Below, piece after piece: positions 9,770 through 40,317 of a DNA stretch of 40,446 nt. A program made the position numbers and the translations under genes. The DNA is from Brasilonema sp. UFV-L1 (GTDB lineage: Bacteria; Cyanobacteriota; Cyanobacteriia; Cyanobacteriales; Nostocaceae), in contig NZ_QMEA01000052.1 of assembly GCF_012912105.1 (NCBI RefSeq), positions 1-40,446 on the forward strand. Reading direction: 5' to 3'. The notes beneath the pieces are model-generated. The model ran no database searches. It saw nothing but the letters and a program-made list of their open reading frames with translations, and had not been told where the DNA came from. Each line of letters starts with the position of its first letter. Positions within the stretch are counted from its first letter, which is position 1.

Positions 9770-11190
9770 ATGGAATCGCAACAAGACTACCACATGTCTC
9801 CAGAGGAATTTCGCCGTTGGGGATATCAAGCTATAGACTGGATAGCCAACTACTTAGAGAATGTCGAGAACCTACCCGTTCTTTCTCAAGTTGAGCCAGG
9901 GGACATAAGAGCTAAGCTACAGAATGCACCGCAGCAAGGAGAATCTTTCGAGGCAATTTTGAAAGACCTTGATGAAATTATTATCCCAGGACTCACTCAT
10001 TGGCAATCTCCCAACTTCTTTGCCTTCTTTCCCACCGGGATTTCTGCACCATCGATTTTAGGAGAGTTAATCAGTGCAGGGTTGGGGATACAAGGAATGT
10101 TGTGGACTACTTCTCCTGCTTGTACTGAATTGGAAAGCCATGTTTTAGATTGGCTGGTAGATATGCTAGGGCTACCAGAACAGTTCAAATCTTCTCAAGC
10201 AGGGGGAGGAGTCATTCAAGACTCGGCTAGTAGTGCAACTCTTGTAGGTTTGCTCGCAGCTAGAGAACAGAAGACAGCAGATATTAACAAGCTGGTTGCG
10301 TACACTTCAACTCAGGCGCATTCGTCAATGGAAAAAGCCGTTAAAATTGCGGGGCTGCCAGTCGGGAAAACTTGCGAGCCCTTGAGGTGGATGCTAACTA
10401 TGCAATGCGTGCTTCGGCGCTACAGCAGTGCATCGAAGCGGATATTAAGGCGGGGTTGACTCCATGTTTTTTGGCTGCTACTGTAGGAACAATCTCATCC
10501 AATGCGATTGATCCGATTCCGCAGTTAGGAGAAATTGCGCAAAAGTACAATATCTGGCTGCATGTTGATGCGGCGATGAGCGGTACAGCCGCCTTATGTC
10601 CAGAATTTCGGTGGATTCATCAAGGGCTAGAGCAAGCTGACAGTTATTGCTTTAACCCTCATAAATGGATGATGACTAACTTTGACTGTACCTGCTTCTA
10701 CGTGCGCGATCGCGCCCCACTGATTCAGGCACTCTCAATTATGCCAGAGTTCCTGAAAAATCAGGCAAGCGATTCGGGCAAGGTCATTGACTATCGCGAC
10801 TGGCAGATTCCTCTAGGACGCAGATTCAGAAGTCTCAAACTTTGGTTTGTGATTCGCTATTACGGTATTGAAGGCTTACAACATTATATTCGCAAGCATG
10901 TCGCTTTAGCACAAGAATTTGCTCAATGGGTAAAATCTCACCCAAGCTTTGAGTTAGTTGTGAATCCTCCCCTGAATTTAGTCTGCTTTCGGCACAAAGG
11001 TGGCGATAGCATTAACCAGGAAATCCTCAATAGTCTCAATTCCTCAAGCAAACTCTACCTAACTTCAACTAAGCTTGACCAAAAACTAACTTTAAGAATG
11101 TCGATTGGACAAGCAACAACAGAAAGCATAAATGTGGAGCAAGCGTGGAAATTAATTTGTCAACAAGCTGATTCATCCAACCTAGTTTAA
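9770..11190 (+). pseudogene. Group II PLP-dependent decarboxylase (aromatic amino acid decarboxylase type), frameshifted
   Basis: Together the two frames encode about 473 residues, normal for aromatic-L-amino-acid/tyrosine decarboxylases. Frame 1 (9770 to about 10365) has MSPEEFRRWGYQAIDWIANYL, HWQSPNFFAFFP, and HSSMEKAVKIAGLPVG. Frame 2 continues as ENLRALEVDANYAM, TVGTISSNAIDPI, WLHVDAAMSG, and SYCFNPHKWM with the PLP-binding lysine, to a complete C-terminus. The break lies at GTCGGGAAAAC (10361-10371): one extra G would restore ...VGENLRAL. The gene is therefore a recent pseudogene or carries a sequencing error in a G run. It ends 9 bases inside the convergent phosphoesterase gene. Substrate not predictable beyond aromatic-type amino acids. 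Confidence 0.88.
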
Positions 11191-23098: not shown

Positions 23099-24427
23099 TC
23101 AGCAATTAATGTAGTGCTGCAATTCCCAAGGTGTCACTGTGGAGTTGTAAGCATCCCATTCCTGATACTTGAACTCCAGAAAAGTCTTTACTCCTAAGTC
23201 TCCCAGAGTCGTCATCAACAAAGCATCCTGTTCTAAACATTGGAGTGCTTCAAATAAGCTAGTTGGGAGTTTCTGGAGGTTGGGAAACTCTGAACCCCGG
23301 ACAAACATATTTTCATCCAAGCGCTTCCCAGGGCTAAGATGCTTCGCCATTCCTTCTAACCCTGCTGCCAAAATTCCTGCCTGAGCTAAGTAAAGATTAG
23401 CAGATCCATCCACCAGACGACATTCAAACCTTCCCGCCTCCGGAATGCGAATCATGTGGGTGCGGTTGTTACCGCCGTAAGATATGTAGCGAGGACTCCA
23501 GGTACTTCCAGAATTGGTATTGCTGGCTCCCAATCGCTTGTATGATGTGACTGTTGGATTGCACAGTGCTGATAATCCACGGGCATGGGCGAGAACGCCA
23601 GCAATAAATTCGTATGCTATCGCACTCAATCCCATCTCATCCGTTTTATCCAAAAAGGCGTTCCCACTTCCCCAAAGGCTCATGTGTATGTGTCCACCAT
23701 TTCCAGTTAAGTGCGAAAATGGTTTGGGCATGAAAGTCGCTGTCAAACCTCGTTGTTCGGCTAGAGTTTTCACCATGTACTTAAAGAACACATGGCGGTC
23801 AGCAGTTGTCAGTGCATCGCTGTAAGTCCAGTTGAGTTCAAATTGACCGTTAGCATCTTCGTGATCACACTGGTAAGGTTCCCAGCCTAACTCTTCCATG
23901 TAACTCACAATCGTGGAAATCAAATCAAACTGCCGCATTAAGTTCAACTGGTCATAGCAAGGTCGGGCGGCTGTATCCATTGCATCAGCAATTTCATAAC
24001 CTTGGTCATTTTTCTTAAGTAGGAAAAACTCAGCTTCTACCCCAGTTTTATAGCTATAACCCAGGCTTTCGCACTGCTGGAGTATGTTTTTAAAAATCAC
24101 ACGTGGAGACGCGCTAAACAGTTCACCATCTAAGTAAACATCACTAGCTACCCAAGCAACATTTCTTTGCCAAGGTAGAACAATCAGAGAATTTGGATCA
24201 GGAATAGCAGCAATATCGTGAGAGTCTGGTCCTAGCCCTAAATAACAAGCAAAAGGAGCAAAGAAAGCACCATCAGATTCAACTGTAGCAATCTTAGCAG
24301 CAGGAATGAGCTTGGCACGGGTTACCCCCAAAAGGTCTGTAAATGATACCAGGAAGAAATCTAGCTTTAAGTCGTCAGCCAACTCAACAAGAGATTTCGT
24401 TTTATTTTCCGGCAAACTTCCAACCAT
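23099..24427 (-). CDS. Type III glutamine synthetase-like (GlnT-type) enzyme
   Basis: 442 residues of the glutamine synthetase superfamily. The beta-grasp domain has FFLVSFTDLLGVTRAKLIP. Catalytic parts follow: VEAEFFLL (metal-binding Glu), QFELNW, TGNGGHIHMSLW (metal and glutamate site), RIPEAGRFECRLVDGSANLYLAQAGILAAG. Its length and motifs fit the short type III/GlnT group related to gamma-glutamylmethylamide synthetases rather than the housekeeping GlnA, and the adenylylation site is absent. It probably ligates ammonia or an amine to glutamate; the true amine is unknown. It is divergent from a second GS-like gene with an insertion element between them. Confidence 0.87.
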   Translation of the reverse strand: MVGSLPENKTKSLVELADDLKLDFFLVSFTDLLGVTRAKLIPAAKIATVESDGAFFAPFACYLGLGPDSHDIAAIPDPNSLIVLPWQRNVAWVASDVYLDGELFSASPRVIFKNILQQCESLGYSYKTGVEAEFFLLKKNDQGYEIADAMDTAARPCYDQLNLMRQFDLISTIVSYMEELGWEPYQCDHEDANGQFELNWTYSDALTTADRHVFFKYMVKTLAEQRGLTATFMPKPFSHLTGNGGHIHMSLWGSGNAFLDKTDEMGLSAIAYEFIAGVLAHARGLSALCNPTVTSYKRLGASNTNSGSTWSPRYISYGGNNRTHMIRIPEAGRFECRLVDGSANLYLAQAGILAAGLEGMAKHLSPGKRLDENMFVRGSEFPNLQKLPTSLFEALQCLEQDALLMTTLGDLGVKTFLEFKYQEWDAYNSTVTPWELQHYINC

Positions 24428-24700
24428 CGCAATTTCTCCCAGTTCGTATGTCCTCTGTGTTCTCTATGATTCGTTTCACAACGAAATCTCACAACTCAAA
24501 TAGGATTGTAATATCAAACCTTTTTCATAATTTACAGATTTTCAGGATTGACACAAGCGCGATTATGTGAATGACACAATGCGATCGCGTTTTGGATAGA
24601 CTCCGTGGAACAAAAGCCCAAAGTACACGCCAGGGATACGCGTAGTGTGCGAAAGAACAGCATGACCGAAAGTCGAAGGGCGCAAGCCCCTAAATTCTAT

Positions 24701-24892
24701 TTATGGGGATAAGCCCGTAGGGGATTTTAATCCCCGTCCAAATTCTTCTATCAACTCACTAGCGCTTATCCCGCGAGATTTTGCTACATTTTTGATATTT
24801 TCCCAAGCCGTAGGGGTAAGCACTACAGTTCTTTTGGCTTTTACCTCATCGTGCAAAATTGGTACGTCTCTTAACCGCTTTTTGGTTGTCAT
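24701..24892 (-). CDS. Ribbon-helix-helix-like small protein of the insertion element
   Basis: 63 residues: a basic N-terminus (MTTKKRLRDVPI), a strand RTVVLTPTAWENI and two helices (KNVAKSRGISASELIEEFGRGL), the layout of an Arc/CopG-type DNA-binding dimer. It is divergent from tnpB with 59 bases between them, which contain the tnpB promoter. It is therefore placed to repress tnpB, an inference from position. Confidence 0.65.
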   Translation of the reverse strand: MTTKKRLRDVPILHDEVKAKRTVVLTPTAWENIKNVAKSRGISASELIEEFGRGLKSPTGLSP

Positions 24893-24914
24893 TTATAGAT
24901 ATGCCGTGTATACT
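24886..24914 (+). promoter_or_regulatory. Sigma-70-type promoter of tnpB
   Basis: TTGTCA (24886-24891), a 17-base spacer, and TATACT (24909-24914), 38 bases upstream of the tnpB start. The -35 box overlaps the start of the divergent small DNA-binding gene. Confidence 0.55.
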
Positions 24915-24951
24915 AGATATAAGCTAACAAACAAAAGGAGGTGATTCAAGA

Positions 24952-26154
24952 GTGTTAGTACTGGAGTACAAAGCGGTAGTCAAGAAGACGAAATCTACAG
25001 CCATAGACGAAGCTATTCGTACAAGTCAGTTTGTACGGAACAAGGTATTACGTTATTGGATGGATAACCGTGGAGTAGGCAAGAAGCAGCTATATCAGTA
25101 CAACACTCAGTTGCGTGCAGAATTTGGATTTGTCAAAGACCTAAATAGTCATGCGTGCCAAGCTTCTGTTGAGAATGTGGAACGCGCAATCAACAGGTTT
25201 TTTGATAATTGCAAGAAAAACAAACAAGGGTTAAAGGGCTATCCTCGGTTCAAGAAAGATTGTCGCTCTGTCGAGTACAAGCAGTCTGGATGGAAGCTAC
25301 ACTCAACAAAGCGTCGGATTGTTTTCTTGGACAACAAAGGTATCGGTGAAGTTAAGTTGTTGGGTAAGTGGGATATCCACACATATCCAATCGAGTTAAT
25401 CAAGCGCGTCCGGATTGTACGCAAGGCTGATGGCTATTATGTCCAGTTTTGCATCAAGGTAGACACTGCATCCGAAGCGAGAACAGGAGATGGTGAAGTC
25501 GGCTTGGATGTCGGATTAGAACATTTTTACTCTGATTCAAACGGGCATCACGAAGAAAATCCAAGGTTTTTAAGAAAAGCTGAAAAAGCTATTAAACACG
25601 CTCAACGCCGGATTTACACCAAGGAAAAAGGTAAAAACAACAGACGAAAAGCTAGGGGGCGATATGCCCGGAAACATTTAAGAGTAAGTAGGCAACGTGA
25701 AGAACATGCCAAGAGACTGGCACGTTGCGTATGCAAGGCTAACGCCTTTGTCGCCTACGATAGCGCAGCGTGCCCGAAGGGCATAGATTTAAACGTGAAA
25801 GGGCTGGTTAGAAATCGCCACCTAGCCAAGTCAATCAGTGATGTTGCTTGGACTTCTTTTCGTCGTTGGATTGAATACTTTGCTTTGAAGTTTGATAACA
25901 AAGTTGTCGCTGTCGCACCTCACTACACGTCACAAAAATGTAGTAATTGTGGAGAGACTGTTAAGAAAGGGCTGTCTACAAGGACTCATAATTGTTCTCG
26001 TTGCGGAACGGTTCTGCAACGAGATGTGAATGCAGCTATCAACATATTGCTCAAAGCTAAAAATACCGGAGGGCATCCGGGAATCAACGCTTGGGGAGAT
26101 GTTTCCTCTACTTCTGTTGGTGGTAACACTTGCAAAAGCAAGAAACGTCGATGA
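24952..26154 (+). CDS. tnpB: TnpB RNA-guided nuclease homologue with an insertion at the RuvC-II site
   Basis: 400 residues. The GTG start is preceded by AGGAGGTG. The RuvC-I Asp186 lies in GLDVGLEHF and the RuvC-III Asp358 in QRDVNAAINIL. The zinc finger CSNCG...CSRCG is complete. The RuvC-II segment, normally YEDLNVKG with the catalytic Glu, reads Y-D270-SAACPKGI-DLNVKG. The eight extra residues are encoded by 25760-25785, a copy of a dispersed repeat also seen near 13760, and the Glu is replaced by Asp270. Nuclease activity is therefore probably lost or weak, although the frame is intact. Guide (omega) RNA would be expected to overlap the 3' end of this gene. Confidence 0.92.
   Translation: MLVLEYKAVVKKTKSTAIDEAIRTSQFVRNKVLRYWMDNRGVGKKQLYQYNTQLRAEFGFVKDLNSHACQASVENVERAINRFFDNCKKNKQGLKGYPRFKKDCRSVEYKQSGWKLHSTKRRIVFLDNKGIGEVKLLGKWDIHTYPIELIKRVRIVRKADGYYVQFCIKVDTASEARTGDGEVGLDVGLEHFYSDSNGHHEENPRFLRKAEKAIKHAQRRIYTKEKGKNNRRKARGRYARKHLRVSRQREEHAKRLARCVCKANAFVAYDSAACPKGIDLNVKGLVRNRHLAKSISDVAWTSFRRWIEYFALKFDNKVVAVAPHYTSQKCSNCGETVKKGLSTRTHNCSRCGTVLQRDVNAAINILLKAKNTGGHPGINAWGDVSSTSVGGNTCKSKKRR
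25760..25785. repeat. Dispersed repeat inserted in frame in tnpB
   Basis: The core GCGCAGCGTGCCCGAAGGGC matches the 13752-13848 units (GCGTAGCGTGCCCGCAGGGC). It is bracketed by GAT on both sides. Net length change against the family consensus is 24 or 27 bases, so the frame is kept. Confidence 0.75.
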
Positions 26155-26163
26155 GCCAAGAAT

Positions 26164-26184
26164 CCCCCGGCTTTTTGCCGGGGG
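26164..26184 (+). terminator. Right-end hairpin of the tnpB element
   Basis: A perfect 8-bp stem CCCCCGGC / GCCGGGGG with TTTTT loop, 10 bases after the tnpB stop. In IS200/IS605 elements this structure serves as the right-end recognition hairpin. It can also stop transcription and form the 3' part of the guide RNA scaffold. Confidence 0.6.
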
Positions 26185-26287
26185 AGTGTCAAAAATCAAG
26201 TGTTCAGCTAAGGGTTTTTTCTGAGGATAGCGATGGTCATAGGTTTAATTTAAAGCTAAATTAACATATGTCAATCATCTACGCGCG

Positions 26288-27646
26288 ATGAAAATGTCTG
26301 TATTAAACAAGACAAAAACTGCTTTTGATAGCATCACCCAGTTTATTGAATATCTAAAAGACCAAGGTTTTGAGTACATCCGCTTCGAGTTACCGGATTT
26401 ACACGGAGTCTCTCGCTCAAAAGTTGTGCCAATTGACAAAGTAGAAAGCTTTACGAGTAAAGGTCTTAATTTTTATGGCGGTTGTCTTGCTTTAGATACC
26501 GCTTCAATGGTTGTACCCGGTTCTGGCTATCACGGAGAACGGAAATACCGTGACTTACTCTTAATTCCAGACCTTGATACTTTAACACCAGTACCTTGGA
26601 TAGAAAAAACAGCTAAGGTCATTTGTGACCCCGTATGGAGTGCAAAAGAACCTGTGGAAGTTGCACCCCGTTATATACTCAAGCAGTTACTAGCAGAAGC
26701 AGCACAGCTTGGATTCGATGTCATGATGGGGCATGAGTTTGAGTTCTATCTTCTTAATCAAGAAACAAAGGAACCGCTTTTTGATGGGTTACATATTTTT
26801 AATAATATTCGCAACCAATACGTTCCTGAAATCACCCAGTTACTGGAATATCTGCGCGCCTCTGAGATAGATGTTATCACCCATAACTGCGAGTACGGTC
26901 CCTCCCAATTCGAGATCAACTACGGACCAAGTACAGGAATTCGTGGTGCTGACAAGGCTTTTACCTTCAAGAATGCAGTCAAGGAGATTGTTCATCAACT
27001 CGGCTATCACGCCACCTTCATGTCTAAACCTTTTATTAATAAATCCGGTTGCTGTTGTCATTTTCATATCAGCCTCATTGACCGCAACACTGGAAACAAT
27101 GCTTTTGTTGACAAGAATGACAAGTATGGTTTATCTGCTACTGCTCAAGCCTTCATTCAAGGTATCTTAGATCATGCAGAGGCGATGATGCCATTAGTGA
27201 ATCCTACGCCTAATTGTTATCGTCGCCTCAAACCTCACACGTTTGCTCCCTCGAATATCAGTTGGGGTATTGAAGATCGTTCAGCAATGGTGCGAGTCAA
27301 GGTAACCGATGATGAATCAACTCATGTAGAAATGCGCGCAGCTTCTGGTCTTAGTAATCCTTACCTAAGTGCAGCAGCTACTCTAGCAGCGGGTTTGTTG
27401 GGTATTAAACAACAGCGTCAACTACAACCCTCAGTAGAAGGTCCCAGCGAGGACAACCCAAATCTACCGAAGTTACCTCAAACGCTTGAGGAAGCTTTAT
27501 CTAGACTGGCTACAGATGTGGATATGCAAAATATACTCTCTCAAGAGTTTGTCCACCTCTTTACAACTGTGAAGCGTTTTGAACTAGCTCGTTTTCACGA
27601 ACATCTTACCGAGTGGGAACGCCATGAGTATTTGGATGTTTACTAG
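26288..27646 (+). CDS. Glutamine synthetase family protein, lengsin-like
   Basis: 452 residues. The N-terminal IRFELPDLHGVSRSKVVP and later PVPWIEKTAKVICDPVW, SPRY-like APRYILKQLL, QFEINYGPSTGIRGADKAFTFK, SWGIEDRSAMVRVK and HVEMRAASGLSNPYLSAAATLAAG follow the lengsin-like branch of class I GS. HEFEFYLL keeps a metal-site Glu. The usual GNGMHVHQS loop reads NKSGCCCHFHISL, with three cysteines, so substrate use may differ from ammonia/glutamate. The start could be the ATG at 26288 or the one two codons later. Divergent from the GlnT-like gene; a joint role in amine or amino acid metabolism is inferred. Confidence 0.85.
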   Translation: MKMSVLNKTKTAFDSITQFIEYLKDQGFEYIRFELPDLHGVSRSKVVPIDKVESFTSKGLNFYGGCLALDTASMVVPGSGYHGERKYRDLLLIPDLDTLTPVPWIEKTAKVICDPVWSAKEPVEVAPRYILKQLLAEAAQLGFDVMMGHEFEFYLLNQETKEPLFDGLHIFNNIRNQYVPEITQLLEYLRASEIDVITHNCEYGPSQFEINYGPSTGIRGADKAFTFKNAVKEIVHQLGYHATFMSKPFINKSGCCCHFHISLIDRNTGNNAFVDKNDKYGLSATAQAFIQGILDHAEAMMPLVNPTPNCYRRLKPHTFAPSNISWGIEDRSAMVRVKVTDDESTHVEMRAASGLSNPYLSAAATLAAGLLGIKQQRQLQPSVEGPSEDNPNLPKLPQTLEEALSRLATDVDMQNILSQEFVHLFTTVKRFELARFHEHLTEWERHEYLDVY

Positions 27647-27717: not shown

Positions 27718-30264
27718 TTACGTTAACATTTGACGAATCAACGTTCTGACCTTATCTGCAGAATCTTGTTGCAATGCTGATGTGGCGATCGCCTCTGCTT
27801 GTGCCATTGTTAATTGGGCGATCGCCTGCTTAAATGTTGGAATCGCTTGTGGATTCAAACTCACTTCATCCAATCCTAACCCTAGTAAAATCGGCACTGC
27901 TAAAGGATTTGCTGCTAGTTCCCCACATAATCCCACCGAAATGCCTACTTTATGCGCAGCTTGGACAGTTTGCTGGATCATCCGCAACACAGCCGGATGC
28001 ATTGCATCAACTAAAGTTGCAACTTGTGGATGTGTACGGTCTGCTGCCATGATATACTGACTAAGGTCATTTGTTCCTATACTAAAAAAGTCCACTTCAG
28101 CTGCTAACTGTTCAGCAAGCACAACAGCCGAAGGTGTCTCTACCATCATCCCGACTTCCATCTTTTCATCAAAAGAAATATCCGCTTGACGTAGTTCAGT
28201 TTGTACTTCTGCGAGTATTGCCTTTGCTGCTTGTATTTCTTGCACAGTCGCAATCATCGGAAACATGATTTTAATTTCATGTCCAAGACTTGCTTTTAAA
28301 ATTGCCCGCAACTGGTTTTTAAAAATATCAGGATGAGCAAGACAAAAACGAATTCCACGCCAACCTAAAAAAGGATTCGTTTCTTGTGGAAAATTCAGAT
28401 AAGGAATTGGCTTGTCGCCTCCCACATCAAGTGTGCGAATAATCAACGGACGATTTTCAAGAAGTTGGGCGATTCGTTGATAAACTGCTATTTGCTCTTC
28501 TTCTGAAGGTGGTGTTGTTCTTTCCAAATAAAGAAACTCAGTGCGGAACAGTCCTACGCCTTCTGCACCCAACCTCAAAGCTTCTTCAGTATCACAAATA
28601 CCTCCGATATTAGCATAGACTTTGATTTGCCTGGTCTTGTCACGAGTGATTGCTGGATTCGCCGCCGTTGTCATTGCTTGCTGATGAGCAATCTGCTGTG
28701 CATTCCGCTTTGCCTCAAGTGCAGTCTGGATATCTCCTTCTGGTTCTATCCAAACTCTGCCAATCTCTCCATCAAGCGCCACAAGGGTACTGTTTGCTAC
28801 TTGCAGTATCTCTGGTGGTAAACCAAAAATCGCAGGAATACCTAATCTCCGAGCGATGATAGCACTGTGTGAAAGAGCACTTCCTGATGTTGTACAAATT
28901 CCCAAAACTTTTGTTGGGTCTAGTCTTGCAGTGTCAGAAGGACTGATATCAGTTGTCACTAAAATAGCTGGTTCGGATAAATTAAAATGGGTAGGATTGT
29001 GCTCAGAAATGATCAGATGAGATTCAAATCTACTGAGCACTCGTAAGACTCGCTGTCCAACATCCATAACATCAGCAACTCGCTCTTGTAGATAAGAATC
29101 CTCAATAGTACGATAATTATCTGCCAACTCATTCACCACTGCCTGCCAAGCTGCTTCAGCATTGAGGTGTTGTTCAAAAATGCGTTGCTGAACGGCTTCA
29201 AGTACCACAGGATCTTCTAAGAAAAGCAGATGAGCATCAAAAATAGCAGCTTCAGCGTCTCCAATTTGGATAGATGTTTGTGAGAATAAAGCTTGAATTT
29301 CCTCGTGAGCAAGTTGAACAGCTACTTGTAAACGTTGCCACTCTTCCTCAAGATTATCTACGTGATATTGCTGTACATGGATTGGAGTGGGATGATACAG
29401 AAAAACGGGTGCGATCGCCACTCCATTGGAAGCAGGAATACCTTGTAAGTAATGGGGTGATAGGGAGATAGGGGGGTGGGGAGATGGGGTGAGGTGATAG
29501 GGTGATGGGCTGGTATCTTCTTCGCCAAAGTTATTTTGGACTAATGTTTTTAATGCTACCAGCGCCTCATCTGCATCAGAACCAGTTGCAGTAATAACTA
29601 ATTCGTGTCCTTGACGCACACCCAAGGTGGATACTTGGTTGATACTGTCAGCGCGTACTGCTTCAGTACCTTTAGTAACATTCCGCACTTTGACTTGGGA
29701 TTGAAAACGGGCTGCTGTTGCAACAAATTTCGCTGCTGGACGAGCGTGTAATCCTAAAGGGTTACGGACTGTAAGACGTATTTCTTTTGTCATTTGTTCT
29801 TCATTGACAAATGACGTAGATACGTCCGTGGTTTCCTCAAGGATATGGCTCACATTTACACCCAATTGAGTGGCTTTAGCAACCAATGCTCCCCGTGCTT
29901 GGGCTATCACCTGTTGAATGTTGCTACCAGAAGCTGCAGTCACAGCAGCTGCAATTGCACCTTCAACAAGTGGTGCTTCACACAGATGGACTTTTGAGCG
30001 TTGTTCTTCTGAGAGAAATTCAAGTGCCATTTCTGCACTCATTAAAGCGCTGCCTAAATCCATTAAGATGACGACACCTTCATCATTATAAACAGAGGCG
30101 ATCGCCTCATAAACTTGTATAGCATCTGTACCTAGCGGGTTTTCTGAGTCGTCAATTCCTGCAGCAATAGCCAAGGGGACTTTACCCTGAACCATTTGCA
30201 CTGCTAGTTCTCGGACTCCTTCTGCTAGCTGGCGACTGTGAGAAACTATGACAATTCCAACCAC
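27718..30264 (-). CDS. DhaM-HPr-Enzyme I multiphosphoryl transfer protein
   Basis: 848 residues with three phosphotransfer modules. Residues 1-130 are an EIIA-Dha (DhaM) domain with phospho-His9 in VIVSHS. Residues 158-245 are HPr with His173 in GLHARPA. Residues 275-848 are a full Enzyme I with His466 in GSALSHSAIIAR and a PEP-binding barrel (GVGLFRTEFLYLER, GGDKPIPY, FSIGTNDLSQY, VGLCGELA). E. coli DhaM has only a truncated EI part, so this one should take phosphate from PEP on its own. The expected acceptor is a DhaL/DhaK dihydroxyacetone kinase, but neither gene is in the window. The HPr-EI linker is repeat-encoded (29456-29512). Confidence 0.93.
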   Translation of the reverse strand: MVGIVIVSHSRQLAEGVRELAVQMVQGKVPLAIAAGIDDSENPLGTDAIQVYEAIASVYNDEGVVILMDLGSALMSAEMALEFLSEEQRSKVHLCEAPLVEGAIAAAVTAASGSNIQQVIAQARGALVAKATQLGVNVSHILEETTDVSTSFVNEEQMTKEIRLTVRNPLGLHARPAAKFVATAARFQSQVKVRNVTKGTEAVRADSINQVSTLGVRQGHELVITATGSDADEALVALKTLVQNNFGEEDTSPSPYHLTPSPHPPISLSPHYLQGIPASNGVAIAPVFLYHPTPIHVQQYHVDNLEEEWQRLQVAVQLAHEEIQALFSQTSIQIGDAEAAIFDAHLLFLEDPVVLEAVQQRIFEQHLNAEAAWQAVVNELADNYRTIEDSYLQERVADVMDVGQRVLRVLSRFESHLIISEHNPTHFNLSEPAILVTTDISPSDTARLDPTKVLGICTTSGSALSHSAIIARRLGIPAIFGLPPEILQVANSTLVALDGEIGRVWIEPEGDIQTALEAKRNAQQIAHQQAMTTAANPAITRDKTRQIKVYANIGGICDTEEALRLGAEGVGLFRTEFLYLERTTPPSEEEQIAVYQRIAQLLENRPLIIRTLDVGGDKPIPYLNFPQETNPFLGWRGIRFCLAHPDIFKNQLRAILKASLGHEIKIMFPMIATVQEIQAAKAILAEVQTELRQADISFDEKMEVGMMVETPSAVVLAEQLAAEVDFFSIGTNDLSQYIMAADRTHPQVATLVDAMHPAVLRMIQQTVQAAHKVGISVGLCGELAANPLAVPILLGLGLDEVSLNPQAIPTFKQAIAQLTMAQAEAIATSALQQDSADKVRTLIRQMLT
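29456..29512. repeat. Heptamer-type repeat inside the DhaM fusion gene
   Basis: On the gene's strand the sequence is a run of CACCCCATCTCCCCA-like and TATCACC units, encoding the Pro/Ser/His-rich linker SPSPYHLTPSPHPPISLSPH. Such runs are usually intergenic in cyanobacteria; here the repeat is tolerated between domains. Confidence 0.65.
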
Positions 30265-32383: not shown

Positions 32384-35300
32384 TTACATTTCCCCTTCTT
32401 CCACTGCGCCTAGTGCTTTAAGGGTGGCTTTCTCGGTTGCGGTTAAACCTATAACGCCTGTGATCTTCATGTTTTCGTAGGGTCGAGATGTTAGTTTTTT
32501 AAAACACTCACCTGTTTTTACATCCCAGAACTTTAAATTCAGACCGCTGCTTACAATTACTTGACCATCAGGGCTGAAGACAACTGAAACTTGATTAACT
32601 AAAACTTGATTAGTATCTTCATGAAAAGTATTTAGACATTCTCCTGTACGAGTGTCCCATAATTTCACTATCCCATCTCCACTCCCACTTACAAGTACTG
32701 AGTTATCCGGACTAAAGGCAACTCCTCCTATCCAACTAGTATGACCATGTAAAGTTTTAGGTTTAAGATAGTTATTTACACCAACATCCCATAGTTTTAT
32801 CGTTCGATCATCACTACCACTAGCCAGCATCTGACCATCTGGGCTAAATGTAACTGAATATATCCAATTAGTGTGTCCTTCTAAAGTTTTAAAACACTCA
32901 CCTGTAGATATACTCCACAGCTTTATGGTACAGTCTCCACCGCTACTAGCTAGTATTTGAGTATTTGGGCTGAAAGTGACACACAGGACTCGGTCACTGT
33001 GTCCTCGCAAAATTTTCAAACACTGATTGCTTTGGACATCCCACAGCCTTATGGTATCGTCTCCACTAGCACTAGCAATTAACTTTCCATCTGGGCTAAA
33101 GGCGAGTGAGTGTATCCGACTGGTATGTCCCTGTAAAGTTGTTAGACACTGACCACTCTCGATCTCCCATAACCTTACTGTTTTGTCTCCGCCAGCGCTA
33201 GCAAGCAGCTTTCCATCTGGACTAAAAACAACAGAACCAACCCAACTGCTATGACCTTTTAAAATTCGCAGATATTTTCCTGTGCGGTAATCCCAAAGCT
33301 TAACTACCTTGTTATTACTGCCGATGGCAAGAGTTTGTCCATCGGGACTAAAAGTGGCTCGTAGTAAATCAGTATATCCCTGTAAGGTTATAAAACATTC
33401 ACCACTCTCAACATGCCATAACCTCGCAGTTTGGTCACGTCCACCACTAGCAACTATGCGACCATCCGAACTAAAAACAACCGAATAAACTTTATCTGTG
33501 TGTCCATGTAGACTTTTTAAACATTCTCCACTCTTAACATTCCACAATTTCACCGTTCGATCATGACTACCGCTAGCAAGAATTTGACCATCAGGGCTGA
33601 ACATAACTGAATTTACCCGATCAGTATGTTCTCGAATAGTTTTCAAACATTTACCATCATTGATGCACCATAGTTTGATCGTTTGATCATTACTACCACT
33701 CGCAAGTATTTGGCTATCTGGACTAAATGCAACTGAATATACCCTACTGTCATGTTCTCGCAAAGTTTTTAAGCATTCACCATTTTTGGTATCCCATAGT
33801 TTTACAGTTTGATCGCAACTACCACTAGCCAGCATTTGACCATCTGCACTAAACGCTATTGATAGCACTCTGTCTGTGTGTCCTCTTAAAGTTATTAAAC
33901 ACTCACCACTCTCAACATCCCATAGTTTCACAGTTTGATCGTAACTGCCACTAGCAAGTATTTGACCGTTAGGATTAAAAGCAATCGAGTGTATTCGGTT
34001 ATCATGTCCATACAAGGTTTTGATGCATTTCCCTGTATTTGTATCCCAGAACTTTATTGTTCCATCGTGACCACCACTGGCTAAAATTTCACCAGAAGAG
34101 TTAAAGACAACTGAATTTACAAGATTATAATGACCTTCACAAACTAAAACTTCTTTACCTGTAGCCATCTCCCACACATGAACAGCACCATAATAATCAC
34201 CTGTTGCTAAAAGTTGATTGTTTGGGCTTAATGCTACACAAATAACTCTGCCAAAGAGTTTTGTGAAACTTGAATCAGATAAATTTGCCTCTGTGAAATT
34301 AGTACCGAGCAAACTCGCATTGCTAAAATCAGCACCTTTAATGACAGTGTGGCACAAATTCCTCATTTCAAATGCATTTTCATCGGCTTTTAACAATAAT
34401 GTTGCCGCATTTCCCCCAACATAACCCACCTCATCTTCACTTCTCCCCTTCGTTCCCTCAATTACATCAAAAACCGACTTTTGAGTATCAACATCAATCA
34501 TCGGTAAAAGCAAATCCATCACCGCTTTTGTTAAAGGCGATCGCCCAAAACTCTCCCTCAACTTTTCCAACGACTCACTTGCAAATCTCCTCAGTGGGGC
34601 ACTTGACAAAATTCCCCCCACCTCATGCACCTGGTGACGAAAATAAGATGACCAAGTGTAATCAACTGGTGCTGCATCATTATTTATATGCAACTGCACC
34701 TGCGCCAACTGAATAAAATCATCAGCCAACGCCCCCAACTGGGCCGCAAACTTATAAGCGACAAAAAACTCTAACAGCGAACGATGCGCCGGAGTATAAT
34801 CACCATCGGCATTACGAATCAGCATCGTCTGCCCCATCATGTCATAATGCCAGTGGTCTAAATCCTTCTCCTCCTGAACAACATCACCAAACAACCGACG
34901 AATTCTGTCAGGAAAAAGGCGATAATTTAAACTCATCTGGTCAGTAGACAGCATCTCCCAGGAAAGTTCACACAAAAAGTAGAGCTTATCTGCTAAAGAA
35001 GTAAAAGTTCGCTCTGCTTTTATATCACGTTCCATCTTCCGCCGCACTGCATACAGGTAAACTCGCGACATATCCACTGGCTTACCTGCTTCAATATCTG
35101 GCAAAGCTTCTAAAATTAACTCTGTCATCACTGGACGACGCGCCAAATCCAACAGTTGAGGATTGCTCATGACCTGCTCAACTGTGGTAGATTCAGCTTG
35201 GAATGACAACACCTGCCGGATTTGCTCGTCGTCGAATTTCTCCAGTTCCAGCACTTCAAACTGGGGCGTTTCACCTGTCAGGTTGGCGGTAGAAGCTTGC

Positions 35301-35464
35301 AATTCTGCGTTGAGTAAAGCACGTCCTTCTTTTGCTTCTGGAAAATGTTCGGTGCGACAAGTCAAGATCACTTTAGCACCAGGAACGACGACTTTCGCCA
35401 ACTCCCAAAAGTTGTTGATCATTTGTTGGCGATGCCTTCGGCAAGCCGCTTCGCGTCTACGCAC
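32384..35464 (-). CDS. NACHT-WD40 protein, C-terminal part of a broken gene
   Basis: This frame carries the rest of the NACHT domain (INNFWELAKVVVPGAKVILTCRTEHF, then the winged-helix region), a short pentapeptide-repeat stretch (GADFSNASLLGTNFTEANLSDSSF), and fourteen WD40 repeats, enough for two seven-bladed propellers. It ends with ITGVIGLTATEKATLKALGAVE, the standard tail of cyanobacterial NACHT-WD40 proteins. The GTG at 35464 lies inside an inserted repeat and is not a natural start; translation could restart at the ATG at 35422. Without the upstream P-loop half the product cannot bind ATP. In the intact state it would be a STAND-type sensor. Confidence 0.88.
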   Translation of the reverse strand: MRRREAACRRHRQQMINNFWELAKVVVPGAKVILTCRTEHFPEAKEGRALLNAELQASTANLTGETPQFEVLELEKFDDEQIRQVLSFQAESTTVEQVMSNPQLLDLARRPVMTELILEALPDIEAGKPVDMSRVYLYAVRRKMERDIKAERTFTSLADKLYFLCELSWEMLSTDQMSLNYRLFPDRIRRLFGDVVQEEKDLDHWHYDMMGQTMLIRNADGDYTPAHRSLLEFFVAYKFAAQLGALADDFIQLAQVQLHINNDAAPVDYTWSSYFRHQVHEVGGILSSAPLRRFASESLEKLRESFGRSPLTKAVMDLLLPMIDVDTQKSVFDVIEGTKGRSEDEVGYVGGNAATLLLKADENAFEMRNLCHTVIKGADFSNASLLGTNFTEANLSDSSFTKLFGRVICVALSPNNQLLATGDYYGAVHVWEMATGKEVLVCEGHYNLVNSVVFNSSGEILASGGHDGTIKFWDTNTGKCIKTLYGHDNRIHSIAFNPNGQILASGSYDQTVKLWDVESGECLITLRGHTDRVLSIAFSADGQMLASGSCDQTVKLWDTKNGECLKTLREHDSRVYSVAFSPDSQILASGSNDQTIKLWCINDGKCLKTIREHTDRVNSVMFSPDGQILASGSHDRTVKLWNVKSGECLKSLHGHTDKVYSVVFSSDGRIVASGGRDQTARLWHVESGECFITLQGYTDLLRATFSPDGQTLAIGSNNKVVKLWDYRTGKYLRILKGHSSWVGSVVFSPDGKLLASAGGDKTVRLWEIESGQCLTTLQGHTSRIHSLAFSPDGKLIASASGDDTIRLWDVQSNQCLKILRGHSDRVLCVTFSPNTQILASSGGDCTIKLWSISTGECFKTLEGHTNWIYSVTFSPDGQMLASGSDDRTIKLWDVGVNNYLKPKTLHGHTSWIGGVAFSPDNSVLVSGSGDGIVKLWDTRTGECLNTFHEDTNQVLVNQVSVVFSPDGQVIVSSGLNLKFWDVKTGECFKKLTSRPYENMKITGVIGLTATEKATLKALGAVEEGEM

Positions 35465-36879
35465 TTCGCAGCCATTTCGTCAAAACCATCAAAAATCAAC
35501 AGCAGTTTCCCCATACTGTTAAGCTGGTCAAAAACCTCGCTGTTTAAGCGAATATTGTGTTGTGTAAAAAAGAAACCTGCCAGAACGTTCTCAACATTCA
35601 GTGCTTTAGCATAGTCGCGCAGGGTGATGATAAGAGGAAGCCGGGGACGTTCAACGCCACGTTTTTGGGCATCCCGATATCGTTGCAGTGCAATCCACGC
35701 ATAATGAAAAGCAAACCAAGTTTTACCAGTGCCAAATTCCCCTAAAATAGAAATATGCTCCTTAGCAGGGTCATCTAACCACATATCAAGATAACCATCA
35801 ATCCAGCCGTCGCGTTCGTCGTATCGACTGACTCCGATTCGGCGTTTGCTAAGTGAGTCAAATTCTTCTTTAGTGCAAGCCAACGGCACGTATTTTTTGT
35901 CAATTTCTCGGCGTTTCACCTCAGCCTCTAGCCAGTCGAGATAATCACTGAAGTCAGCATCTTGGTCTATCAGTTCGTCAAAAGTATAACAATCAAGCTG
36001 GCGATTTTCCTCTTTCTCTACTTCATCACGCGCCGCCCGTGAAATTCGTCTTGCTGTCACTAACCAACCTTCATCAGTTTTTTGCTTTTCCACCGACTGA
36101 CGCAAAGCCATCACATCACCTAGTCCCGCCTCACCCTCAATTCCACGTATAAGAATGCGGTCATATCGATTACGTCGTGCGGGAATATCAATAATCCACT
36201 CAAAATAATTGTCTTCCCAAACTTCATACTTTTCAAAGCGGTAGCCCAAGGTTTCAAACCAGCCTTGCATCTGCTGGGCTAAAGCGATCGCCCGACATTT
36301 CTTTTCTTGTAGAGACGTTGCATGCAACGTCTCTACACTCTGTGCTGCTAACCGTGCCATCTCTGTTCTCATTCCTTCCTGTGTCGGCAGTCTTTCCAAC
36401 TGTTCTTGGATACTTGCGATTCTTTTATGTAGAGAACCTATCTGCTGATTCATCAAAACATCAGCAGGTGTTCGGCTGCGCTTAGCAACTTCGATAAAAA
36501 CCGTGGCAAAAGCAGCAATTTCTCGCCTCATGTCAATTCCCGAGGTTTTGATTTCATCACCCAAGGCGTAGGCATCGAGAAAAGCATCAATTTCTGAGAG
36601 AAGAATTGAGGGATTGTTATGACTTAATGCTTTGCGGAAAGCCTGTTTTATTTCTTCTTGCCGAAAAAGTTCGAGAAATGGCTTGGGTTTGCCTATTCCA
36701 TATTCTACCAGAGCGTAGGCGTAAACTCCGCTGAAATCAGATGGAGGATGCTCTGGATCAAGGTTAAATTTCTTTAATAATTTGATGACAGTCTCGTTAC
36801 GCTGAATCTTTTCTTTGATTATTGGATTGGCAATACCAGTAATTGCGCTGATGAGCGAGTCAAGATTAATCGGTATCAC
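35419..36879 (-). CDS. NACHT-WD40 protein, N-terminal part of a broken gene
   Basis: 486 residues. Residues 1-150 are helical with no known motif. Residues about 195-310 (GWFETLGYRFEKYEVWEDNYFEWIIDIP...LIRGIEGEAGLGDVMALRQSV...GWLVTARRISRAA) have the spacing of a restriction-endonuclease-like fold but lack a clear E-x-K. The NACHT P-loop is GEFGTGKTW (Lys386) and Walker B is LLLIFDGFDE (Asp464, Asp467, Glu468). The frame then enters an inserted repeat and stops after AAKCVDAKRLAEGIANK. The downstream frame continues the protein. In-frame residues VETLHATSL come from a palindromic repeat. Intact homologues would be STAND NTPases with a possible antiphage role. Confidence 0.87.
   Translation of the reverse strand: MIPINLDSLISAITGIANPIIKEKIQRNETVIKLLKKFNLDPEHPPSDFSGVYAYALVEYGIGKPKPFLELFRQEEIKQAFRKALSHNNPSILLSEIDAFLDAYALGDEIKTSGIDMRREIAAFATVFIEVAKRSRTPADVLMNQQIGSLHKRIASIQEQLERLPTQEGMRTEMARLAAQSVETLHATSLQEKKCRAIALAQQMQGWFETLGYRFEKYEVWEDNYFEWIIDIPARRNRYDRILIRGIEGEAGLGDVMALRQSVEKQKTDEGWLVTARRISRAARDEVEKEENRQLDCYTFDELIDQDADFSDYLDWLEAEVKRREIDKKYVPLACTKEEFDSLSKRRIGVSRYDERDGWIDGYLDMWLDDPAKEHISILGEFGTGKTWFAFHYAWIALQRYRDAQKRGVERPRLPLIITLRDYAKALNVENVLAGFFFTQHNIRLNSEVFDQLNSMGKLLLIFDGFDEMAAKCVDAKRLAEGIANK
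35431..35463. repeat. Dispersed repeat that frameshifts the NACHT gene
   Basis: On the gene's strand: TGCGTAGACGCGAAGCGGCT then TGCCGAAGGCATC. The palindrome GCTTGCCGAAGGC and the GCGTAGACGCG unit match other copies (the 13599-13614 unit is CGCTGCGCGTCTACG). The net insertion is not a multiple of three. Removing it joins DGFDEMAAK to RQQMINNFWELAK. Confidence 0.75.
36308..36337. repeat. 30-bp perfect palindrome inside the NACHT gene
   Basis: The half-site TGTAGAGACGTTGCA is followed by its exact reverse complement. This family of AGAGACGT...ACGTCTCT palindromes is widespread between genes of filamentous cyanobacteria. Here it is translated in frame as part of SVETLHATSLQ. Confidence 0.75.
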
Positions 36880-37829: not shown

Positions 37830-37866
37830 GCTCTCTTGTTCGTCAATAGCAAGAGAGCTTTTTTTT
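37830..37866 (+). terminator. Rho-independent terminator after the O-methyltransferase
   Basis: A perfect 9-bp stem GCTCTCTTG / CAAGAGAGC with an 11-base loop, followed directly by eight T residues, 122 bases after the stop codon. It isolates the next gene, which must have its own promoter. Confidence 0.9.
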
Positions 37867-37935: not shown

Positions 37936-40317
37936 ATGACAAGTGTAGAGTTTGAAAAAACTGTGCTCAGTGAACAGCAGGTAGAGAAGCTATGGGAAGC
38001 GTTCACAGTGTTTGATGAGGACGGTAGTGGAGCGATCTCAACCGAGGAACTAGGGCAAGTCATGCGTTCCTTGGGACAGACTCCCAGCGACACGGAAGTG
38101 CGCGACATGATTAAGGAAGTTGATGTTGACTTGTCGGGTAGTATTGATTTTGAGGAGTTCAAAGCACTGATGGTGTCTAGGCAAGGCGATCGCAACAGTC
38201 GCCTCAAGCTGGCATTTAGTGTGTTTGATGAAAACGGTAGTGGTGAAATCACCGCAGACGAGATGCGATCCGTGATGAGCCAGTTTGGGTTGACCGATGA
38301 AGAACTCGATGAGATGGTCAAAGAAGTGGACCATGATGGCGATGCTTCGATTGACTTTAAGGAGTTTTGTCAACTGATGCCCGATGAATCAGAGATCACA
38401 ACGGGGTATCAAGACTCACCAATTGTAAGCACCAGTTCGCTGAAAACAACTACAGATTCAATTGACACAGCTACCATCAATGCAGTCTCGGCGACTACTG
38501 ACACTTCACAAGAAACATCTACTAAGATAGATTCAGAGGTGGGGCGGCTGCAACAAGTACTCTCCCAACATCCACAAAATGAGCAGCAGCGTGGTACCTC
38601 CTGTTTGCAGATGCAAATTGCTTTGTTTCGTCTACTTCAAGGAGCAGCTTACCGCTGTTTCCGCGAGAGTTTCTCCGCCAACCACGAAACCCATCTGCGC
38701 GTAAGAAACTTGCCATATAGAATCACTGACTTTGTGCAGTTTGTAAAGACGGCAATTGAACTGTACAAAGGATTGGGTATAGTGGAAGCGGCTTGCCATC
38801 CTGTACTAGATGCCGTAGTTGAATCAATTTCGGCTGAGTATGTGCGACTAGAGGAACGCATTCAGAACTGGAAGACAATCCAAAAGACACCAGAGATGTT
38901 GGCAGAAGAGAAAGCGATGTTGGAGGCGCGTGGTAAGTCTGCCACTGTCAAACAGAAATTTGCTGCGGGGGTTGAGTTTGCGATTACACTGAAGAAGAAA
39001 AGTTTTAGCTTACGTGATATCGCTGAAGGTGTACTTGCCATCAACGAACTCAACCGACTGAGGAACATAGAGCTGAATGCGGAGTTGGCTCCACCACCAG
39101 CTAAATCTGAGGAACATCCACAAGAGTACCTGAAGAAGTGGAACCGTGTTATCCTGACAAGTGCATCAGAAGAAGTGGATGGTGCAATGATGCCGGTATC
39201 ATATTGGTATGAGGATTTCATGCCAAAGCTTTTAGCTGCGTTCAACGTGAGTACAAAAGCGGACATCCAGAGCAACACAGTACCTGACGAGGTGGCTTTG
39301 CAGAAGTGGTACGACTCCACCAAGACAGCAGGGGAGTTTAACCGCTATGGGGCGGATGTTGCAGAAAGCTTTGCAAACTGCACCGCTCAACTTCTGTTGA
39401 GACTCAAGCAAGCATGGCGACTGACACACCATTACCTCAATGGTGTGCAAAAACGGCGCGAACGCTTGGAGTTTGGACGTGAATCAGGTGCGCTCTCACA
39501 GTATGTGTCATTCATTGATGTGTATCTAGGGCGGAGCGATGTAAAGGATGCACAAATGCGTGTCAGCTTTCCATACTATATTGGTCCTGCGGTGTGGCGC
39601 TTCTTCCACACGACTGCTGAAATTGTCTGTACCAAGACACCTGAGCAACAAAAAGCCCTAGTGCGAACCTTCAAGGAATTCTTCGGGCTGTTTGCTACCA
39701 TGTACCCCTGTCCTTACTGTCGTCATCATCTCAACATGTATGTGGTGCAGAATAAGGAGGTGGAAATGTACCCCGTGGAGTACCTTGTTCTTGGACGTGA
39801 CATACACCTAACTAACTTTGAAGTGTCGCTGGATGCAAAGCTGTCCACTGTTGTGGATGGTTCTTCTCTTCGCCTCTTCCTTTGGAAGCTGCATAACACA
39901 GTTTCCTCTTCTATTGCTCGCTCGGAAGAGTGGTACCATAAGGACGAGAAAGCATTTTATACGACTCGCTATTGGCCTAGCATTGACTCTGAACTGGCAC
40001 GAGCTAAAGCACTTCAACACATTAGCATTGCAACTGACCGCATCTACCGCCTCTATGGCATACTCAGACCAGCATCACGGCTAGCAGGGGTGAGAACAAC
40101 ATTGCAAAAGCTGTTGGATAAGGGTGATGAGGAAGGCATTAAGGAAGCGTGTATAGTTGCACAGGATTACATAAAGGAATTAGAGGAAGCTGCCATTAGC
40201 GGAAACTTCTTGCAAGAGACATACTACTTCAATCCTGACCTTATCGATAAAGCTCCACATTTCACCCCCGAGGAGGAGGAATTTGCACGCAGTGGTGTGT
40301 TTGTTGAGCTCGTCTAA
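37936..40317 (+). CDS. Calmodulin-like EF-hand protein fused to an Erv1/Alr-like sulfhydryl oxidase domain
   Basis: 793 residues, ATG preceded by AAGAGAG; a possible -10 box TATACT lies at 37884-37889. Residues 15-148 are a calmodulin-like lobe pair with four EF-hand loops: 27-38 (DEDGSGAISTEE), 63-74 (DVDLSGSIDFEE), 98-109 (DENGSGEITADE) and 132-143 (DHDGDASIDFKE). ELGQVMRSLGQTP is almost the eukaryotic calmodulin sequence. Residues about 200-540 are helical and unrecognised. Residues about 545-670 match the Erv/Alr FAD-oxidase plan: Trp554-x3-His558, the redox pair CPYC (592-595) in YPCPYCRHH, and W-x2-His653-Asn654 in LFLWKLHNTV. There is no signal peptide, so it is cytosolic. It probably makes disulfides with O2 under Ca2+ control; this is inference. 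Confidence 0.85.
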   Translation: MTSVEFEKTVLSEQQVEKLWEAFTVFDEDGSGAISTEELGQVMRSLGQTPSDTEVRDMIKEVDVDLSGSIDFEEFKALMVSRQGDRNSRLKLAFSVFDENGSGEITADEMRSVMSQFGLTDEELDEMVKEVDHDGDASIDFKEFCQLMPDESEITTGYQDSPIVSTSSLKTTTDSIDTATINAVSATTDTSQETSTKIDSEVGRLQQVLSQHPQNEQQRGTSCLQMQIALFRLLQGAAYRCFRESFSANHETHLRVRNLPYRITDFVQFVKTAIELYKGLGIVEAACHPVLDAVVESISAEYVRLEERIQNWKTIQKTPEMLAEEKAMLEARGKSATVKQKFAAGVEFAITLKKKSFSLRDIAEGVLAINELNRLRNIELNAELAPPPAKSEEHPQEYLKKWNRVILTSASEEVDGAMMPVSYWYEDFMPKLLAAFNVSTKADIQSNTVPDEVALQKWYDSTKTAGEFNRYGADVAESFANCTAQLLLRLKQAWRLTHHYLNGVQKRRERLEFGRESGALSQYVSFIDVYLGRSDVKDAQMRVSFPYYIGPAVWRFFHTTAEIVCTKTPEQQKALVRTFKEFFGLFATMYPCPYCRHHLNMYVVQNKEVEMYPVEYLVLGRDIHLTNFEVSLDAKLSTVVDGSSLRLFLWKLHNTVSSSIARSEEWYHKDEKAFYTTRYWPSIDSELARAKALQHISIATDRIYRLYGILRPASRLAGVRTTLQKLLDKGDEEGIKEACIVAQDYIKELEEAAISGNFLQETYYFNPDLIDKAPHFTPEEEEFARSGVFVELV

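Follow-up and report, generated by a model that had tools for sequence, protein, structure and literature searches.

A calmodulin-like lobe fused to an Erv-type domain in Brasilonema sp. UFV-L1: a candidate calcium-controlled switch for protein thiol oxidation

Gene and domain organization

The window analyzed here is the whole 40,446 bp stretch of contig NZ_QMEA01000052.1 from the cyanobacterium Brasilonema sp. UFV-L1. It carries, with its stop codon 129 bases from the window end, an uninterrupted open frame with an ATG start (37936–40317, forward strand) whose 793-residue product joins a calmodulin-like lobe, a linker and a predicted QSOX-like pseudo-Erv/Erv module (Table 1). Pfam analysis identified EF-hand_7 (1.2e-30) and four EF-hand_1 stretches at the N-terminus and Evr1_Alr above its cut-off, so the four-EF-hand lobe and Erv/Alr-type domain that the original prediction had placed in one chain are both present. 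No thioredoxin family appears among the 16 Pfam matches of the protein. The gene is found at one place in its own genome. Because the ratio of nonsynonymous to synonymous substitution rates (dN/dS) is 0.07–0.11 against four relatives, the frame is not a product of chance. Contamination or an assembly artefact was rejected since intact copies lie in records titled complete chromosomes (CP019636.1, NZ_CP031705.1, NZ_CP114040.1). Inspection of the first 40 residues by eye shows no clear signal peptide, as predicted, and mean hydrophobicity over any 19 residues peaks at a Kyte-Doolittle value of 1.3, too low for a membrane helix.

Table 1. Features of the fusion gene and its upstream flank. pLDDT, predicted local distance difference test.
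Feature	Residues	Position in window	Strand	Remarks
Whole gene	793 in total	37936..40317	+	Calmodulin-like lobe, linker and QSOX-like pseudo-Erv/Erv module (predicted fold)
Calmodulin-like four-EF-hand lobe	11–150	37966..38385	+	51% identity to human calmodulin
EF-hand loop 1, DEDGSGAISTEE	27–38	38014..38049	+	
EF-hand loop 2, DVDLSGSIDFEE	63–74	38122..38157	+	
EF-hand loop 3, DENGSGEITADE	98–109	38227..38262	+	
EF-hand loop 4, DHDGDASIDFKE	132–143	38329..38364	+	
Variable, poorly ordered linker	152–197	38389..38526	+	pLDDT <50
Middle helical region, highly conserved	221–545	38596..39570	+	Proposed counterpart of QSOX pseudo-Erv; exact boundary inferred
Basic segment	332–358	38929..39009	+	Proposed internal target helix of the lobe
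Catalytic Erv domain	551–663	39586..39924	+	Predicted helices 551–565, 569–589, 593–604, 642–663
W554-x3-H558	554–558	39595..39609	+	FAD-binding type motif
CPYC redox motif	592–595	39709..39720	+	Invariant in 70/70
Insert between CxxC helix and HN helix	605–641	39748..39858	+	
W650KLHN654	650–654	39883..39897	+	Second FAD-binding type motif, placed by eye
C-terminal helical tail	664–793	39925..40314	+	
Terminator-like hairpin		37830..37858	+	11 pairs, T run after; between O-methyltransferase gene and fusion gene; pattern match only

The catalytic Erv domain

Relatives were drawn from a GTDB-based collection in which 122 stretches matched peptide patterns and 105 encode a relative; the loci named here are the best 80 of those 105. 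Two alignments, picked by completeness and spread, combine the window with 38 (A3) and 69 (A4) of the 80 loci. The match to Evr1_Alr (PF04777) covers residues 552–609 and is significant (4e-10; 40.4 bits, where the cut-off is 27.6), in agreement with the predicted family, and the fusion protein is the sole match in its genome. All 70 aligned members match the same profile (E up to 10, best 1.7e-12). The motifs W554xxxH558, C592PYC595 and W650KLHN654 stand in the predicted Erv/Alr order, but their spacing departs in part from that prediction, as 57 residues (596–652) separate CxxC from HN, against about 28 in ALR. WxxxH aligned to Erv1 and HN lies outside that alignment; by role we take both to be motifs of the type that binds flavin adenine dinucleotide (FAD). 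CPYC, W554, H558, H653 and N654 are invariant in 70/70, and the predicted fold includes a four-helix Erv bundle (Table 1).

An Erv/ALR chain carries a second, shuttle cysteine pair. The only invariant cysteines of the fusion family are C592 and C595. C287 (63/70) and C482 (61/70) were rejected as a required shuttle pair since neither is invariant, and the only recurrent cysteine (at least 20%) after residue 595 is C739 (48/70).

The middle region

The roughly 350 middle residues had been described as unrecognized, a view that overlooked a likely structural counterpart. The predicted model, which has the helices of an Erv bundle, matches the QSOX1 oxidase fragment (3lli) by VIA-align, and the middle region likely corresponds to the pseudo-Erv half of QSOX. 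The pseudo-Erv/Erv pairing in one chain is a proposal supported by fold prediction. No pseudo-Erv was seen in the middle region by sequence. Weighing against the assignment, a Foldseek search of the C-terminal model against the PDB yielded 44 matches, all of them weak and none reaching E 0.001, and the QSOX1 fragment was not listed among them. Foldseek also matched the C-terminal model to Yasminevirus A0A5K0UAY3 in BFVD (1140 residues, named histidine kinase; E 2.0e-17, 21% identity), which matched the full model at 8.3e-19; on this structural match, giant viruses or protists may have members of the family.

The calmodulin-like lobe

The lobe has four canonical EF-hands with calmodulin spacing. 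It shares 51% identity with human calmodulin over 142 columns, 32% with the closest of three further cyanobacterial EF proteins compared and 24% with the calerythrin-type EF protein that the same genome encodes. Searched against the PDB, the lobe matches calmodulin at ~142 bits, whereas the calerythrin-type protein matches juvenile-hormone diol kinase (88 bits), calexcitin (53), calerythrin (46) and calmodulin (~35). One structural row for the lobe is a Chlamydomonas 'redox protein' (5e37), which we take to be calredoxin (CRX). A scan with the lobe of 146 genomes of the phylum found nothing outside the family above 67 bits and 42% identity. In a tree of 22 rows, with just four eukaryotic proteins and calerythrin itself absent, the lobe sides with calmodulin and is split from the calexcitin group at 99/97, and the genome's own calerythrin/calexcitin-type protein clusters with calexcitin and juvenile-hormone diol kinase (99/97). 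This placement agrees with the calmodulin-like character first proposed for the lobe. Branching order within the calmodulin half is mostly poorly resolved, and the eroded family lobes of L091 and L097 fall away from the remaining family lobes.

By a loose pattern, 52 of the 80 loci hold four EF loops, 8 three, 2 two, 10 one and 8 none, the last including four loci with an incomplete N-terminus (L079, L089, L100, L101). Most cyanobacterial copies, and all four Nannocystaceae copies that are complete, keep four canonical loops. EF-hands also end two other cyanobacterial membrane proteins, named by eye, which resemble a 4Fe-4S CcoG relative (L125, 1468–3402, reverse strand) and a urea transporter (L128, 1486–3195, reverse strand).

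A candidate internal target of the lobe

In the structural search of pdb_via with the full-length model, the rows were taken up by EF-hand proteins and were uninformative for the rest of the chain. The lobe match runs on to residues 348–358 in 14 of the 50 listed rows, three of which have titles that name calmodulin together with a target peptide, and the model seems to place helix 338–354 near the target-holding site of calmodulin. The docked target helix is a predicted feature, supported by fold modelling. Mean pLDDT is higher with the lobe than without it for residues 341–350 (71 vs 55) and 351–360 (62 vs 46), the two models being built on differing alignments.

Net charge of 27-residue segments over residues 221–793 (546 segments) was compared with how many loops are intact in each of 37 of the 39 A3 sequences, leaving out L089 and L102 with their incomplete lobes. 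The top segment of the 546 is 332–358 (rho 0.87), with a mean charge of +4.9 at four loops and -1.6 at none or one. The segment picked first, 336–362, ranks 27 (rho 0.72; 0.76 with all 39 rows), and a second charge-correlated region at 671–697 (rho 0.84) has a smaller shift, from +1.2 to -1.4. Several observations limit the case for a clamp on this helix: the pLDDT difference is reversed at residues 331–340 (59 with the lobe, 64 without), L097, L098 and L103 hold a charge of +3 with one or two loops, and the phylogenetically independent pairs number 2 on supported branches and 3 on all. In the 2 supported pairs charge changes in the same direction in 1.4 on average and never in the opposite one, significance being unreachable with 2. 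With just 2–3 such pairs, the correlation is a lead and not proof.

Distribution and origin

Residues 201–793, used as query, matched 24 of the 291 genomes examined from the order and 18 of the 386 in a phylum sample, own genome counted in each; these numbers include truncated or stop-bearing remnants in G265, G253, G240 and G576, and in G219 a copy in two pieces on two contigs. Loci L023, L024, L025 and L034 are such truncated or stop-bearing remnants in some relatives. Judged from these sequences, the gene seems to have been lost repeatedly.

Relatives among the best 80 of 105 come from filamentous and other cyanobacteria (60–94% identical), Nannocystis and Enhygromyxa (56–62%), mostly uncultured Pseudomonadota (53–61%), and Rhodobacterales and picocyanobacteria (47–49%). 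One copy, annotated 'ERV1/ALR-related protein', is borne by a Gemmobacter plasmid. In the tree of the 70 C-terminal parts, Cyanobacteriota are split, with at least 4 changes on supported branches, a figure to be read with the long branches that meet at L111 and with mislabelled bins and paralogues, which can mimic transfer. Myxococcota form one clade (100/100) inside cyanobacterial branches, and the copies from picocyanobacteria group with those from Rhodobacterales in another, distant clade (100/100). L095, from a bin labelled Klebsiella pneumoniae, groups (100/100) with two copies from uncultured proteobacteria, and its label is probably wrong.

What the sequences show outright is the architecture, its conservation and the motifs, with the same fusion kept across several bacterial phyla. 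Calmodulin is inferred in parts of PMC7016017 to have reached eukaryotes from cyanobacteria or actinobacteria. Given this argument and the presence of the fusion in several phyla, assembly after a transfer of eukaryotic DNA, as originally suggested, is unsupported as a recent event.

Comparison with known systems

By predicted fold, the fusion may share with the QSOX pseudo-Erv/Erv module (3lli) a single chain of non-catalytic and catalytic Erv-like bundles, and both have a CxxC with FAD-type motifs. The fusion differs in being bacterial, in its N-terminal calmodulin-like lobe, and in lacking a thioredoxin domain, a signal peptide by eye and an invariant C-terminal CxxC; that CxxC is called universal in QSOX in sections of PMC3616962, which describe pseudo-Erv/Erv modules of this type from eukaryotes and a baculovirus enzyme that is arranged similarly. 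Erv1, Erv2 and ALR (PF04777) share the significant profile match and the order WxxxH, YPCxxC, HN. They are small symmetric dimers (for the Erv1 dimer, PMC3616962, in part), whereas the fusion protein has a fused core, a longer CxxC-to-HN gap and a calcium (Ca2+) lobe. Calmodulin shares the four EF-hands and the identity given above and is free-standing, unlike the bacterial lobe within an enzyme of ~800 residues.

Calredoxin of Chlamydomonas likewise fuses four EF-hands to a dithiol redox enzyme, and its thioredoxin activity needs Ca2+ according to portions of PMC4911631; it is a thioredoxin that reduces its partner, whereas the fusion is a predicted FAD oxidase. In eukaryotic and cyanobacterial NOX5 a calmodulin-like EF domain gates a flavin oxidase (PMC7317449, in part). 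NOX5 differs as a membrane NADPH oxidase with an unrelated catalytic part and no thiol chemistry. Several bacterial calmodulin-like fusions are listed in PMC7016017, among them cyanobacterial EF-hands of this kind joined to redox or membrane domains, and cysteine-rich domains are mentioned there alongside calmodulin homologues of cyanobacteria. Its main text contains neither 'Erv' nor 'sulfhydryl', and its figures or supplement may draw the fusion under another name. Erv1/Alr proteins have been noted in Nostocales, Oscillatoriophycidea, Rhizobiales and Rhodobacterales (PMC10598087), the examined parts of which do not mention an EF-hand/Erv fusion. Among the matches listed in a full-text literature search, with subscription papers and preprints outside its scope, no paper reports such a fusion in bacteria.

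Proposed mechanism and alternative explanations

Disulfide formation is normally excluded from the bacterial cytosol. The retention of the fusion in other bacteria suggests a calcium-controlled switch for protein thiol oxidation, and on balance we lean towards a soluble, cytosolic, Ca2+-responsive thiol oxidase that depends on FAD and resembles the oxidase half of QSOX in its build, with its activity set by the N-terminal lobe. We infer FAD binding, oxidase activity, Ca2+ gating and the direction of its effect, a client and the cytosolic location. Pseudo-Erv and Erv would lie in one chain, with the calmodulin-like lobe in the place of the thioredoxin domain. The C592–C595 disulfide would be reduced by substrate thiols, small-molecule thiols or a partner thioredoxin, and electrons would pass onward to FAD and then to O2, yielding a disulfide and hydrogen peroxide (H2O2). 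A rise in Ca2+ would shut the lobe on the internal basic helix (about 338–354), and this closure would alter active-site access or dynamics.

The thiol oxidase could be active while the EF lobe is structural, constitutively Ca2+-loaded or a docking platform, with no switch. Such a lobe would fit the conservation of the oxidase core where lineages have lost most loops, and the evidence for Ca2+ regulation is indirect; the four canonical loops of most cyanobacterial and four complete Nannocystaceae copies, and the tendency of the basic charge of the target helix to drop where loops decay, make this rather improbable. It is less probable still that the Erv domain is a Ca2+-controlled generator of H2O2 or a redox signal, or an O2/thiol sensor, that forms no structural disulfides: Erv enzymes usually serve protein clients, and neighbour clusters of the 80 loci hold no signalling gene at a fixed nearby place. 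In its favor are the absence of a membrane helix and, by eye, of a signal peptide, the absence of invariant shuttle cysteines, and NOX5 as an EF-hand-controlled maker of reactive oxygen (PMC7317449, in part). That the Erv fold is a scaffold past thiol oxidation, with CPYC binding a metal or partner, would suit the CxxC-HN insert and the missing invariant shuttle pair but is very unlikely given CPYC, W554, H558, H653 and N654 in every one of the 70 sequences.

The Ca2+-responsive oxidase can be extended to a bacterial single-chain switch: a calmodulin-like clamp, with its target helix in the same chain, would control a QSOX-like thiol oxidase and time cytosolic disulfides and H2O2 by Ca2+. The lineage would be common to cyanobacteria, myxobacteria and further bacterial groups, and would have a giant-virus protein, Yasminevirus A0A5K0UAY3, as a structural relative. 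This fuller picture is put forward tentatively, as possible though open to considerable doubt.

Genomic context

The upstream neighbour of the fusion gene encodes an O-methyltransferase. The hairpin between them (Table 1) suggests that the fusion gene is transcribed apart from it, terminator-like patterns numbering 4 in the window against 2.3 expected. Clustering of neighbours covered 1020 frames from the 80 named loci, with short flanks at many. An operon or partner gene was rejected since no offset is common to more than 6 loci among the 25 largest clusters, the largest of which (histidine-kinase-like by eye) is present in 20 loci; a few small clusters near-fixed in 5–6 loci are read as close kin. 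In the picocyanobacterial/Rhodobacterales clade, Pfam analysis of 20 neighbours at four loci revealed no theme. Near the fusion gene on the Gemmobacter plasmid, and likewise in Prochlorococcus, where it is seven frames away, lies a glgX gene (60% identical), which is probably coincidence.

The phage records searched hold no relative of the fusion protein, and two viral-contig scans, whose reach is limited to relatives keeping the short peptides, gave 60 and 2 pattern matches with 0 confirmed. Mobile or phage cargo was rejected on this absence and on the single plasmid copy, that of Gemmobacter. PADLOC gave no match for the protein, and the protein's match to an NCBIfam calcium-binding effector family, which spans the EF-hands, lies under the cut-off (62 of 120 bits).

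Elsewhere in the window, a frame with NACHT-associated NNH5 and NA-iREase1 (32384–35464) overlaps, in another phase, a WD40-repeat frame (35419–36879, both reverse strand); the two look like parts of a single NACHT-WD40 gene interrupted by a frame break. Overlapping forward-strand frames at 9770–10459 and 10372–11190 match Pyridoxal_deC 1–167 and 169–375 and probably make up a single decarboxylase gene that a frame break has divided. A TnpB-like gene (OrfB_IS605/Cas12f1-like, 24952–26154) lies between two glutamine-synthetase-like genes that are on opposite strands from each other (23099–27646). A single-chain phosphotransferase system protein of EIIA-HPr-enzyme I type is encoded at 27718–30264 on the reverse strand.

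Implications

If the proposed activity holds, a bacterial calcium-controlled oxidase would tie Ca2+ signals directly to thiol oxidation and would give Ca2+ a testable role in cyanobacteria. It would also bear on the origin of the pseudo-Erv/Erv module and of calmodulin, and a Ca2+-switchable oxidase would be usable as a tool.
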